From Paenibacillus sp. 32352 (GTDB lineage Bacteria; Bacillota; Bacilli; Paenibacillales; NBRC-103111), in NCBI RefSeq assembly GCF_002042965.1, contig NZ_MZNT01000018.1:1-64000 (forward strand): DNA of 64,000 bases. Direction: 5' to 3'. Position 1 is the stretch's first letter. Each line of letters opens with the position of its first letter. Of this stretch, positions 1-43,786 are shown in pieces. The translations under genes and the position numbers were made by a program. Under the pieces are notes generated by a model. That model saw nothing but the letters and a program-made list of their open reading frames with translations, was not told the origin of the DNA and did no database searches.

Positions 1-70
1 TTGGAACCGCCGTATGCGGACCCGCATGTACGGTGGTGTGAGAGGACGGGGGTTAATCACCCCCTCCTAC
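1..70 (+). mobile_element. 3' end of a group II intron (domains V and VI)
   Basis: The first 70 bases fold like the catalytic 3' end of a group II intron. Bases 6-14 pair with 29-37, a two-base bulge (TG, 27-28) follows, and 15-18 pair with 23-26 around a four-base loop: the domain V shape. Bases 43-52 pair with 60-68 as a G/C-rich domain VI hairpin, and the predicted intron end is the TAC at 68-70. The rest of the intron and any reverse transcriptase lie outside the window. The intron runs antisense to the regulator gene it abuts, so it could not be spliced from that gene's mRNA. Confidence 0.8.
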
Positions 71-448
71 TCGATTATCGAAAAAACGCAGGTTCTTACC
101 CGTCTGAAGCTTGCCGGTGCTGATCATCCACTCGAAGCCCTGCTCCACAATGCCTATCAAATATTCAACGGCTTTGGGGTCATGTTCATGCAGCGCACGC
201 AAGGATAGGGCAAGCTGCTCGATCCGGGCGCCTGCGTCATTCTCGATATACGGCTCGATCTCGTTGGTTTCGATCAACTGAAATTCGTTTTGCAGCTTGT
301 TGATGATTTCCAGCTGAAGCGTCCTTGTTTTGCCGGATTCAAGATTGCTTAAATAATCGGGCGATACACCGAGCTCCCTTGCAAAATCCATAATGTCCAC
401 GCCGCGCTGCTGCCGGATGGTTTTGATGTACAGGCCAATCTCATTCAT
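53..448 (-). CDS. XRE-family helix-turn-helix regulator, 3' end altered by intron
   Basis: 131-aa DNA-binding protein. Residues 4-60 form a Cro/C1-type HTH (IRQQRGVDIMDFARELGVS, then DYLSNLESGKTR), followed by a helical tail probably used for dimerisation. The ATG at 448 has a weak upstream ribosome site. The last exon-encoded residue is Arg (71-73); the final V-G-G-G-D and the stop codon at 53-55 come from group II intron sequence. The native C-terminus has therefore been replaced, and the lost length cannot be judged from this window. No target is evident. The adjacent methyltransferase promoter is of MerR type and not an obvious XRE operator. Confidence 0.8.
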   Translation of the reverse strand: MNEIGLYIKTIRQQRGVDIMDFARELGVSPDYLSNLESGKTRTLQLEIINKLQNEFQLIETNEIEPYIENDAGARIEQLALSLRALHEHDPKAVEYLIGIVEQGFEWMISTGKLQTGKNLRFFDNRVGGGD

Positions 449-3610: not shown

Positions 3611-4045
3611 GTGAGGATGAAAGCTTTGAAATTCATGAAGTCTATTTTGTTTGTATTCCTAAGCTGTTTGCTGCTTCTGGCCGGATGCGGAGTGAGCAAG
3701 GAAAAACCGCAATCAGAGGATTATACGACGTTTGAAAGTGTCGCCAAGTACATTCAAGCTCATAACAAATTGCCGGATAATTTTATTACCAAGAACGAAG
3801 CGACCAAGCGGGGCTGGGATCCTCAGAAAGGGAACTTGAATCAAGTTGCACCTGGTAAAAGCATAGGCGGCGATGTCTTCCAAAACCGTGAAAATAAATT
3901 GCCCTCGAAAAAGGGGAGAATATGGTACGAAGCCGATATCAATTACAAATCAGGCCACAGGGGAAAAGACCGCATCTTATTTTCCAACGACGGCTTAATC
4001 TATAAGACCGAGGATCATTACGAAACGTTTCAGCAAATCAAGTAA
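3611..4045 (+). CDS. barnase-type ribonuclease, predicted lipoprotein
   Basis: 144 aa. Residues about 37-144 match barnase (N1/T1-type guanyl ribonuclease) closely, including VAPGKSIGGDVFQNRE and IYKTEDHYETF. All active-site residues are visible: Lys61 (barnase K27), Glu107 (E73), Arg117 (R83), Arg121 (R87) and His136 (H102). The export signal differs from classical barnase: residues 9-26 form a lipoprotein signal ending in LLAGC with Cys26 as the lipidation site, so the enzyme should be membrane-tethered outside the cell. The start is uncertain: GTG 3611, ATG 3617, TTG 3626 and ATG 3635 are all in frame, and GTGAGG at 3611-3616 could itself be the ribosome site for TTG 3626. The inhibitor gene follows 17 bases downstream. 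Confidence 0.93.
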   Translation: MRMKALKFMKSILFVFLSCLLLLAGCGVSKEKPQSEDYTTFESVAKYIQAHNKLPDNFITKNEATKRGWDPQKGNLNQVAPGKSIGGDVFQNRENKLPSKKGRIWYEADINYKSGHRGKDRILFSNDGLIYKTEDHYETFQQIK

Positions 4046-4062
4046 ACACAGGGGGGATAGCC

Positions 4063-4335
4063 TTGCGCGAAATCATACTGGATGGCCGGAAATTTGATTC
4101 TAAAGACCAGCTGCATGCTGTCTTAAAAGAAGCCCTGTCGCTGCCGCACTATTACGGTAATAATTTGGACGCCTTATGGGATTGTCTGACCGGATGGGTT
4201 GAACTGCCGCTAACGCTTCGCTGGCAGCATTTTCAGGAAAGCGAGAAAAAGCTCGGGGAGTATACTGGGCTTTTGTTGCAGCTTTTTCAAGACGCGGAGA
4301 AGGAGATTGAAGGTTTTCATTTGCGGATCGAGTAA
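4063..4335 (+). CDS. barstar-family ribonuclease inhibitor
   Basis: 90 aa, same length as barstar. The helix-2 signature LPHYYGNNLDALWDCLTGW (28-45) is nearly identical to barstar, and Asp36 and Asp40 match barstar D35 and D39, which plug the barnase active site. The cytoplasmic inhibitor protects the cell from nuclease made before export. It starts with TTG at 4063 after a GGGGGG ribosome site and forms an operon with the nuclease gene. A structured-RNA candidate and a terminator follow. Confidence 0.93.
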   Translation: MREIILDGRKFDSKDQLHAVLKEALSLPHYYGNNLDALWDCLTGWVELPLTLRWQHFQESEKKLGEYTGLLLQLFQDAEKEIEGFHLRIE

Positions 4336-4381
4336 AAGCTTAATGAATAAGACGGAGGGGTATATCATAGACATGAGAGAG

Positions 4382-4493
4382 CCTCTATCGAAGCCTTTCT
4401 AAGACGTGCGGCCGGCGTCTAGAGGTAGGTTTTATCGCCAAATAAAATTTTTACATCCGATGACCTCGGAGTCTTATAAATTCTGTGGTAAAA
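4382..4493 (+). ncRNA. candidate structured RNA, copy 1
   Basis: Intergenic 112-nt element. Helix P1 pairs CCTCT (4382-4386) with AGAGG (4421-4425); P2 pairs AGACG (4402-4406) with CGTCT (4416-4420) around a GCGGCCG-containing loop; P3 pairs TTTTATCGCCA (4430-4440) with TGGTAAAA (4486-4493), enclosing CGATGACCTCGGAGTCTTATA. A second copy at 43621-43737 keeps the loop blocks (GCGGCCG, GGTTTTATCGCCA, GATGACCT, GTCTTATA) but swaps the helix sequences with pairing kept. This copy lies after barstar and is followed at once by a terminator. I cannot match it to a known RNA family. The function is unknown. Confidence 0.65.
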
Positions 4494-4529
4494 AAGGACA
4501 AGAGCAGAAGCTGCACTTGTCCTTTTATT
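4490..4529. terminator. bidirectional intrinsic terminator
   Basis: AAAAGGACAAG (4493-4503) pairs with CTTGTCCTTTT (4515-4525) with a T run on both strands. It can end the barnase/barstar/RNA transcript and the convergent EamA transcript. Confidence 0.85.
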
Positions 4530-4595: not shown

Positions 4596-5462
4596 CTAGG
4601 TCTTATTACCCCTGCTTGTTTCGCTTAGCAGCGTCGATCCCAACAATAAGGCAGCGCCAGCCAATTGAAGTAATGTCATCTTTTCGCCTATGACAAGAAC
4701 TGAAATAAACAAGGAAGTTAAAGGATCTATATAGCTTAATACAGCGACGCTCTGAGCCTTAAGCCCGCTCATTCCAGTAAAGAACAGGTAGAATCCTACT
4801 CCCGCATGAAATATTCCCAGGAGCAGCAGTAAAATAATAGAATTGCCCGATATCCGGAAAATAGGAGAGCCTTCTGTAATGAAAACATAAGGCAGTAGTA
4901 TGACAGAGGATAAGACAATCTGTATAAACGTATTCTCCAGCCCGTTCATGTTTCGGATGAACTTGTTAACCAGGGTCAAGACCGCATAAAAACCCGCCGC
5001 TATAAGCCCATAGATAATACCGAGCAGATTATGTTCGGCTGTGGCTGTTTTATTGCTCTGTACAATCAAAACCAATCCGATAAGGGCAATGACGACACAT
5101 ATTGCTTTTTTTAGCGAAAGCTTTTCTTTCAATACAACAGGCGACATCACGATAACCAGCACAGGAGCAAAATAATAGCTTATGGCTGCATTCGCAATCG
5201 TAGTTTCCTTATAGGACTGAAAAAGAAAAATCCAATTGCCGCACAAAGCGAGGCTCGCTATAAACAGCGGGACCACATTTCTTCTTATAATTTGCCGTGA
5301 TATTTTATGCTTCGTACTCATGCAGATGATGAATAAAAACATACTGCCAATAAGGCTCATGAAAAGAGCAATTACACTTGCACTCAAATCTATATATTTA
5401 GCAAAAACGCCAACTGCGCCAAATATGATCATCGACAAAATAAAATAAATCGTTTCTTTCAC
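4596..5462 (-). CDS. EamA/DMT-family transporter
   Basis: 288 aa with ten predicted membrane helices in two EamA repeats; the second repeat begins about residue 145 (GIIYGLIAAGFYAVLTLVNK). AISYYFAPVLVIVMSPVVLKEK at the end of repeat 1 and SVAVLSYIDPLTSLFISVL in repeat 2 are the standard family motifs. These drug/metabolite exporters move amino acids, nucleosides or similar small molecules; the substrate here is unknown. The ATG at 5462 follows a GAAAAAGAAG-type weak ribosome site. Two ACAGTAGA motifs lie in its upstream region (5525-5590). Confidence 0.88.
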   Translation of the reverse strand: MKETIYFILSMIIFGAVGVFAKYIDLSASVIALFMSLIGSMFLFIICMSTKHKISRQIIRRNVVPLFIASLALCGNWIFLFQSYKETTIANAAISYYFAPVLVIVMSPVVLKEKLSLKKAICVVIALIGLVLIVQSNKTATAEHNLLGIIYGLIAAGFYAVLTLVNKFIRNMNGLENTFIQIVLSSVILLPYVFITEGSPIFRISGNSIILLLLLGIFHAGVGFYLFFTGMSGLKAQSVAVLSYIDPLTSLFISVLVIGEKMTLLQLAGAALLLGSTLLSETSRGNKT

Positions 5463-12251: not shown

Positions 12252-12296
12252 AAAAAGCCCGGGATGATATCGTCCATGATATCCTCCCGGGCTTTT
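12252..12296 (-). terminator. riboswitch expression-platform terminator
   Basis: On the minus strand AAAAGCCCGGG pairs with CCCGGGCTTTTTG across a loop. The 5' arm overlaps the 3' end of the guanidine aptamer, so ligand binding can compete with terminator formation. Confidence 0.85.
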
Positions 12297-12389
12297 ATCC
12301 CTCCGTGTCCACAGAAAAGTCCTGTGTGTTTTCTCTCGGACCAGACCGAGCTTCTATGAAGAAGCCGCGGAACCCTAGAAAACCTCGGT
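12284..12389 (-). ncRNA. guanidine-I (ykkC) riboswitch aptamer
   Basis: Minus strand. The conserved blocks of the ykkC class are present in order: CTAGGGTTCCG (12378-12368), CTGGTCCGAGAG (12344-12333), the AAAACACAC stretch, and ACGGAGGGATAAAAGC (12306-12291). The class senses guanidinium and turns genes on by preventing termination. It sits about 110 bases before the SMR gene pair. Confidence 0.93.
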
Positions 12390-42086: not shown

Positions 42087-42140
42087 CGTACGACAGTCCA
42101 CGGAGGGATCTCTCCCTCCTGGGCGGTACGGTCTATTTTT
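42087..42140 (+). terminator. terminator of the sugar importer operon
   Basis: CGTAC/GTACG and GGAGGGA/TCCCTCC pair in a two-part stem (42087-42130), followed by TCTATTTTT. Confidence 0.75.
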
Positions 42141-42160
42141 ACATTATAGGGCTTATAAAT

Positions 42161-42220
42161 TTCGGGGCTCCCCGCAAAGTACCTGAATCTGCTTCGAAGA
42201 CATGGCCCCGCTTTGTGGGG
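42161..42220. repeat. 60-bp terminator-like repeat, copy 2
   Basis: TTCGGGGCTCCCCGCAAAGT through CCCCGCTTTGTGGGG; CCCCGCAAAG pairs with CTTTGTGGGG and TTTTTC follows. Sister of 31331-31389, also placed after an operon. Confidence 0.75.
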
Positions 42221-42350
42221 TTTTTCTTGCGTTTTTTGGTAGTTGCAGCAACCTTTTGCCAATCGTCTTCGTCAGAAGGGTAACTCCGGAGTTGAAAAAG
42301 GAAATAATAGGCTTGCAGCTTAGTTGATACCAAAGAAAGGTGGCTTCATT

Positions 42351-43596: not shown

Positions 43597-43620
43597 GGAG
43601 ATGCTAAGATGTGGTAAGAA

Positions 43621-43737
43621 AACTATATCGGGCTTTTTCAAGGACGAGCGGCCGTGTTCAATGGTTGGTTTTATCGCCAGAATAGCATTTTCAAGCCCCG
43701 ATGACCTTGGGTCTTATAGATGCTATTGTGGTAAAAT
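43621..43737 (+). ncRNA. candidate structured RNA, copy 2
   Basis: 117-nt relative of 4382-4493. P1 pairs AACTAT (43621-43626) with ATGGTT (43661-43666); P2 pairs GGACG (43642-43646) with TGTTC (43655-43659) around GCGGCC; P3 pairs TTTTATCGCCAGAATAGCAT (43669-43688) with its complement at 43720-43737. P1, P2 and P3 differ in sequence from copy 1 but pair equally well. It ends 49 bases before the alpha/beta hydrolase ATG, as a leader or riboswitch would. The open frame that runs through it into the hydrolase is not coding. Confidence 0.68.
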
Positions 43738-43786
43738 AAACCTGCACGGGCTGGACATAACTACGCGGTTAATGAGAGGAGCTGCT

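Follow-up and report, generated by a model that had tools for sequence, protein, structure and literature searches.

The two related sequences in the window (the whole 64,000-nucleotide stretch of Paenibacillus sp. 32352 DNA analysed here) are probably copies of a non-autonomous mobile structured repeat that may travel in the form of a folded single strand or a circle, a reading to which we assign a probability of roughly 0.6. The repeat forms a dispersed family whose occurrence in the order of Paenibacillus-like bacteria is patchy. A first-pass annotation had described the two sequences as a covarying structured RNA of unknown class in two copies, one followed by a terminator and the other in a gene leader. 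Both sequences and their named shared blocks are indeed present, and the covarying structured element outside Rfam was borne out; a regulatory RNA in two copies, with a terminator of its own or a leader role, was not, and a regulatory function is unlikely for the copies examined.

Each unit spans about 115-130 bp (by eye), from T(A/G)A(G/A)AAAAC to ...GTGG, ...ATTA or ...CGT. The ends of unit 1 were placed from the tandem junctions and the empty sites of other copies, and the element limits proposed at first, 4382-4493 and 43621-43737, give way to those in Table 1. Unit 1 was one of the six sequences that seeded the covariance model R1, so that its own R1 score is not independent.

Table 1. 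Features of the window that belong to the repeat units or lie near them.
Feature	Position	Strand	Remarks
Unit 1 (TGAG...GTGG), 115 bp	4374..4488	+	R1 match 4371-4494, 127.7 bits, E 4.6e-26
P1 5' arm of unit 1, TGAGAGAGCC	4374..4383	+	partner 4428-4437; P1 supported by shuffle test, 41 distinct arm pairs
P1 3' arm of unit 1, GGTTTTATCG	4428..4437	+	partner 4374-4383; same shuffle test
P2 local hairpin of unit 1, CCTC-TATC-GAAG	4382..4393	+	one C-A mismatch; P2 shuffle test
P3-P4 hairpin domain of unit 1, conserved CTTATA internal loop	4438..4488	+	compensatory changes in P3 and P4
A-tract TAAAAAA and hairpin GGACAAG...CTTGTCC, right of unit 1	4489..4523	.	sequence
Unit 2 (TAAG...GTGG), 117 bp	43615..43731	+	R1 match 43612-43737, 80.4 bits, E 6.5e-15; outside R1 seed
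P1 3' arm of unit 2, GGTTTTATCG	43667..43676	+	partner 43615-43624; A-C and G-A mismatches at TAAG/ATCG end
Host sequence right of unit 2, TAAAATAAACC	43732..43742	.	found in empty site too
Family-2 repeat copy	42136..42225	-	dispersed repeat; elsewhere can abut a family-1 unit; other family-2 loci: L073, L296, L297, L300, L305-L320
Barnase-type ribonuclease gene, then barstar gene	3611-4335	+	PF00545, PF01337; just upstream of unit 1
Group II intron domain	5-75	+	RF00029, 47.6 bits; at window edge
Guanidine-I riboswitch	12282-12389	-	RF00442, 83.7 bits

A pattern made from the shared blocks gave five copies in the source genome, and R1, built from six copies, gave at least 23 matches at E≤0.01 and at least 31 at E≤1 (at least one of these 31 being an antisense self-hit), which disposes of the claim that there are two copies. 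Because at most 150 (source genome, genus), 33 (family) or 17 (order) candidates per genome were scored, all copy numbers are lower bounds. Within the genus, matches at E≤0.01 were present in 11 of 13 genomes, with the highest numbers in G003 (at least 81), G010 (at least 71) and G001 (at least 50) and none in G006 and G008. At the family level, 74 of 104 genomes from 12 of 22 genera had matches at E≤1e-4, and in the order 76 of the 198 genomes drawn, from 19 of 43 genera, had matches at E≤1e-5. A covariance-model search of Paenibacillaceae, as proposed together with the first reading, recovered further homologs, with compensatory changes present. An exact pattern run over contigs returned 51 stretches; 11 were inspected, of which six were chance-like and five were real members, from P. 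rigui and Paenibacillus sp. H1-7, the same copies being in G001 and G010. No member was found in viral contigs with two exact patterns or in phages with one copy as the query. Among plasmids, 10 places were matched in two records of Paenibacillus cellulosilyticus, the best of them carrying no annotated feature.

That the element belongs to no Rfam class could be confirmed, as neither window unit reached any gathering score of Rfam 15. At E≤5, unit 1 gave four weak minus-strand matches, all over the terminator hairpin and one of them overlapping the unit end, and unit 2 gave none; another copy, which has a repeat of a second family beside it, gave no match over the element. The group II intron catalytic domain RF00029 had no match at either unit and was matched only at the window start. 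A search of the mainly open-access literature found no description of such a family in Paenibacillus-type bacteria.

Each unit contains two adjacent hairpin domains on one strand. In the 5' domain, helix P1 pairs TRAGAAAACC with GGTTTT(ATCG or CTTG) and encloses helix P2 (CCTC-TATC-GAGG) together with a conserved segment, GATGAGCGACCGCG; P1 and P2 compete over one or two bases. The long hairpin P3, with a conserved (A/T)CTTATA on its 3' side, and the inner hairpin P4 make up the 3' domain. The sequences CGACCG, TATCGA and CTTATA are conserved in loops. In unit 1, the non-Watson-Crick contacts of P1 are T-G, two more G-T and one G-A, the first two P2 bases compete with P1 and P3 has a right arm that is shorter by about three bases. 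In one subfamily (L007, L107), the 5' domain is longer by about 30 bases, which lie after GAGCGACC and include a small hairpin (about AAAGTTTTGCT..AGCAAAAC); the matches L133 and L134 are of similar length.

The long 3' hairpin covaries strongly. This was measured on A6, an alignment of 29 copies fitted to the R1 structure (P3, P4 and the two short helices of the first-pass annotation). On A6, the P1-P4 structure has 93.7% of its cells paired and both sides changed in 10 pairs; as in all our shuffle tests, relatedness among the copies is ignored in the comparisons that follow. The P1-P4 structure shows 66 double-change cells against 25.0 ± 3.9 after shuffling, its covariation score of 0.220 (shuffled 0.089 ± 0.008) was reached in none of 500 shuffles, and slid versions of the structure score at most 0.064; one of the five measures, the 19 further pair types, was within chance (118 of 500 shuffles). 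Double changes affect two of four pairs in P2, six of 13 in P3, two of five in P4 and none of seven in P1. An alignment-free shuffle test, independent of A6, used 132 units that were picked, like those of the wobble and A-run tests below, by patterns of their own with divergent units left out. P3 forms 8.14 of nine Watson-Crick pairs compared to 6.76 ± 0.09 by chance (maximum 7.08 in 2000 shuffles; 78 distinct left arms), P1 6.56 compared to 6.06 ± 0.12 (0 of 2000 shuffles reach the observed value; 41 distinct arm pairs) and P2 2.74 of four compared to 2.39 ± 0.09 (maximum 2.72 in 2000 shuffles; 50 distinct variants). A narrower version with 49 units placed P2 and P3 above all shuffles and P1 within chance (12 combinations).

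The long helix P3 of the first reading is thus real. Examples of compensated arms are AATAGAATT/AATTCTATT, AATATCAGA/TCTGATATT, AATGATAGA/TCTATCATT, AACATAAGA/TCTTATGTT and ATAGGAAAG/CTTTCCTAT, and P2 occurs as CCTC/GAGG, CTTC/GAAG, CGTC/GACG and CTCC/GGAG. Support for P1 comes from comparison between subfamilies, with no double change inside the A6 class: its variants include TAAG...CTTG, TGAG...ATCG, AAGC/GCTT and GATAAACC/GGTTTATTC, the last being compensatory, as is AAGAAAACC/GGTTTTCTT versus AAGAAAAGC/GCTTTTCTT. The two short helices that had been proposed, CCTCT/AGAGG and AGACG/CGTCT, were rejected as a conserved fold, since they have no double-change pairs and no excess covariation (0.032 compared to 0.038, 434 of 500 shuffles being as high) although they were built into the model of A6, and P1 and P2 fit better. 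CCTCT/AGAGG is slightly above chance in the alignment-free test (3.61 compared to 3.41 ± 0.06, maximum 3.67, 1000 shuffles). An outer helix GTTTTA/TAAAAC, at first included in R1, was discarded as weak, with 17 of 500 shuffles scoring as high. Mismatches in P3 are G-T about as often as A-C (17 and 15 after cleaning, 22 and 18 before), which either fails to support a single folded strand or is due to decay after insertion; the wobble count of P1, 106 compared to 12, rests largely on one constant T-G position.

Strong covariation, conserved loops and the position of some copies just upstream of genes would be expected of a structured RNA family, duplicated many times, that regulates in cis or acts in trans (a riboswitch, an attenuator or an sRNA). 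We nevertheless regard this explanation as highly improbable, because the gene contexts are unrelated, copies form head-to-tail arrays, orthologous sites are empty and one unit sits inside a transposase gene. In the window, the neighbours identified by Pfam are barnase/barstar, EamA, an S-layer domain protein and an alpha/beta hydrolase, and elsewhere a sugar ABC transporter, a HIT protein and a radical SAM protein were recognised by eye; no constant downstream gene class was seen across the contexts examined, and the riboswitch reading was rejected on that ground. Orientation was scored against stop-to-stop frames at 16 of the 23 loci of the source genome, with at least one neighbour misassigned (L084). 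Among the 13 scorable copies, eight are antisense to both neighbours, which argues against the leader role once suggested, two are sense to both, two lie between divergent genes and one between convergent genes.

Sequence comparison provides good evidence of mobility. Empty counterparts exist for three genomic sites, and one further unit interrupts a tnpA gene. Unit 2 is absent in G004 and G011, where the same two flanking genes are present; the empty site reads GTGTGG|TAAAATAA(A/C)CC and the window ATGTGG|TAAG...GTGG|TAAAATAAACC. A unit of G011 is absent from G004 and from the G000 homologue, and the empty G004 site, GCATAAAAAGCC, runs into a terminator-like hairpin that is also found to the right of the G011 unit and in the G000 homologue. 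At this site, the terminator therefore stands in two relatives without the element, and the proposal that the element encodes it was dropped. At L001, between sugar ABC transporter genes (by eye), the G001 counterpart lacks the unit and has a similar hairpin (CTCTGCTGC...GCAGAG) with no clear A-tract, and the junction could not be resolved. In G003, an IS605-type tnpA is split by a unit, while an intact paralogue of this gene exists elsewhere in the same genome, and the host site, CATAAGAAAATCTCTATGG, resembles the left end of the inserted unit, TATAAGAAAACCTCTATCG.

At the three resolved sites, a TAAAA or TAAGAAAA tract directly follows the unit on its 3' side, and the tract is there without the unit as well. 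No target duplication is evident at the G011/G004 site. Unit 2 has GTGG(TAA) on both sides, explained by host GTGTGG plus the unit's own end, or conceivably by a duplication of 7-8 bp. The side that provides TRA differs among the resolved sites: TGA is found on the left at G011 where G004 and G000 have TAA, TCA on the right at L147 where the paralogue has TAA, and TAA on both sides of unit 2. Insertion appears to be clean, with no long target-site duplication evident. We infer that the empty state is the ancestral one; precise excision would look alike.

The lack of an evident target duplication would also fit IS200/IS605-type or REP-like derivatives, in which a Y1 HUH transposase acts on a folded single strand, insertion takes place 3' of a short flank motif and this motif is read by pairing with an internal guide. 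Published descriptions of this class include hairpins, tetranucleotides that serve as guide and target, and single-strand intermediates in the form of circles (PMC6006769). The Paenibacillus units have hairpins near both ends on one strand (P1/P2 and P3/P4), and the second base of the left end matches an internal partner in 121 of 132 units (77 G-C, 44 A-T; the remaining 11 are six G-T and five A-C), with the sites disagreeing on whether the left TRA belongs to the host or to the element. This explanation is unlikely, given that PF01797 (Y1_Tnp, E≤0.001) was found in just three of 13 genus genomes and that G006 has four PF01797 matches yet no repeat match at E≤0.01. Nine of the 11 carrier genomes of the genus are without a PF01797 match, so that a Y1 transposase was rejected as the present-day mover; the source genomes of the unit could have lost the gene. 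Y1 fragments beside two G003 copies were considered as the element's own gene and rejected, as they belong to the IS605-type gene, one copy of which is interrupted by a unit. Two loci of this genome, L149 (G003:C7) and L147 (G003:C34), are truncated IS605-type tnpA copies with tnpB-like sequence and a family-1 unit at the left side; they share TCGTTCAG before the tnpA part, and their units are only about 75% identical. The open reading frames between two pairs of neighbouring copies are ordinary genes (by eye) and include no autonomous element. In this small search, which covered a Y1 profile in 13 genus genomes and the two sets of inter-copy frames, neither a mobilising enzyme nor an autonomous copy was found.

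The association with A-tracts extends beyond the resolved sites. From 110 units, 84 with a parsed right end remained after filtering and removal of repeats, and 62 of these, a few of them poorly parsed or spurious, have no other unit following them; an A-run follows the unit in 52 of the 62, a pattern-biased count. A minimum free energy of -10 kcal/mol or lower in the 45 nt after the tract was predicted for 33 of the 62 copies, compared to 25.5% of 615 control A-runs taken from the loci of these units (Fisher p 1.1e-5; Mann-Whitney p 1.2e-7), a contrast that may be inflated as the control runs are mostly genic, and part of which may be a plain intergenic preference. A strong hairpin is absent in 29 of the 62. 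Read on the opposite strand, the order is hairpin, T-run, unit. The tract and hairpin to the right of unit 1 form a terminator that flanks the EamA-family gene (4596-5462, minus strand) on its 3' side. They presumably served as the insertion target of unit 1, as suggested by the empty site of another copy and by the hairpin excess after the 62 copies.

A retro-element in the style of SINEs, whose RNA, transcribed as the structured strand and ending in ...GGUAAAA, would prime on the T-run of a terminator on the other strand with a reverse transcriptase supplied in trans, would be in keeping with the A-run that meets the 3' side of so many parsed copies and the hairpins that often come next. The reverse transcriptase might come from intron enzymes, and the start of the window contains a group II intron domain. 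The A-tract at the resolved empty sites is, however, that of the host, so no element-encoded tail is shown, and no series of 5'-truncated copies was established; this route appears quite unlikely.

All 21 arrays among the matches listed are head-to-tail, each on one strand (counted by eye), and hold two or three units, adjoining units sharing one boundary. Single arrays mix subfamilies, and in L073 a family-1 unit and a repeat of a second family (from about 1621) stand in one array. Family 2 consists of (T)AACCCCACAAAGTGGGGCCTTGGCTTCGAAGCTGATTCAGGTACTTTGCGGGGAGCCCCGAAATTTATAAATTCTATAATG followed by TAAAAAA and often a hairpin; its 3' end and landing site resemble those of family 1, and it has no Rfam match. 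At least 16 copies are listed in the source genome besides the one in L073, with more in G002, G004 and G011. Yet another recurring sequence, the third, was noticed by eye beside several repeats (approximately GGTTTCTCGACAGACTGA, or TGTCGAGAAACCTATAGAACTTGAA as its complement), in the left flanks of L305 and L312 and the right flanks of L309, L315, L100 and L007.

The one shared boundary per unit in the arrays, and host targets that resemble the unit junction (best in the tnpA case), recall an integron-like folded-strand recombination target, in which a tyrosine or serine recombinase would recombine circles at a short core rich in A. We hold this to be rather doubtful: the crossover position is resolved in no site and the candidate recombinase is hypothetical. 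Both this and the Y1 explanation are narrower forms of the mobile structured repeat that we prefer, so that the likelihoods expressed here do not sum to one.

For this mobile repeat, excision or copying may yield a unit in the form of a folded single strand, the ends of which are joined to give the junction GTGG|TRAGAAAACC. An enzyme supplied in trans might then recombine the joined junction with a host A-tract in one orientation. The resemblance of the junction to an A-rich tract of the host would lead to clean insertions in one orientation and to arrays, the latter whenever the chosen tract is the junction of a unit already in place. The hairpins would be kept for the enzyme or the folded circle and not for regulating each neighbour, and any effects on adjacent transcription would be side effects. 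The single strand, the circle and the enzyme are what we infer in this scheme. More specifically, the units might form a protein-free lineage of Paenibacillales, a folded single-stranded or RNA circle with an undescribed trans-acting system that integrates at the A-tracts of terminators, at least two families sharing landing sites and mixed arrays; we consider this version doubtful.

Our analysis adds a widespread, structured and array-forming family of putatively mobile repeats to the Paenibacillales. The match to a transposon end, raised at the outset, is borne out in part, in that the whole unit behaves like a small mobile element. Covarying structure that appears tied to mobility and not to gene control is a warning for RNA-discovery work in which covariation is equated with regulatory RNA. 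Should the enzyme be found, it would reveal the means by which a protein-free element of about 120 bp reaches dozens of locations, many of which adjoin terminators.

Group IIC introns also insert beside transcription terminators. The Paenibacillus unit differs from them in having no Rfam intron match and in that its structured strand runs toward the hairpin, not away from it. The comparisons that follow are by description. BOX, RUP and SPRITE of Streptococcus pneumoniae are small many-copy repeats with extensive secondary structure, often located downstream of genes; the boxB modules of BOX stand in tandem and vary in number, SPRITE is terminator-like, and BOX and RUP have terminal inverted repeats and are linked for their mobilisation to IS elements, target duplications being a mark of MITEs in general (PMC3049150). 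The Paenibacillus repeat is likewise small, dispersed, structured and present in many copies. Unlike BOX and RUP as described there, it has no terminal inverted repeat, its ends TRAGAAAACC and ...GTGG or ...ATTA not being complementary (by eye), and no evident duplication, and it is whole units, not modules such as boxB, that stand in tandem. The repeats bcr1-bcr18 of the Bacillus cereus group, from different bacteria, are similarly interspersed in Gram-positive genomes; some are MITE-like, some have conserved secondary structure, and 40-51% are found in transcripts (PMC3446304). REP elements with TnpA_REP are short hairpins of 21-65 nt with a GTAG or GTGG foot (PMC6006769). With these and with IS200/IS605 ends, where hairpins are recognised on one strand and a flank motif is read with a guide, the Paenibacillus unit shares its many intergenic copies and its hairpins; unlike REP, it has two longer domains in 115-130 bp and mostly occurs in carriers without a Y1 match (nine of 11). 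As far as these partial descriptions go, none of BOX/RUP/SPRITE, bcr and REP/IS200 unites all the features seen here: two domains that covary, ends without terminal inverted repeats, arrays of whole units and landing sites at A-tracts. Small non-autonomous interspersed repeats are a known kind of element; the Paenibacillus family with its covarying domains appears to be a new one of this kind.
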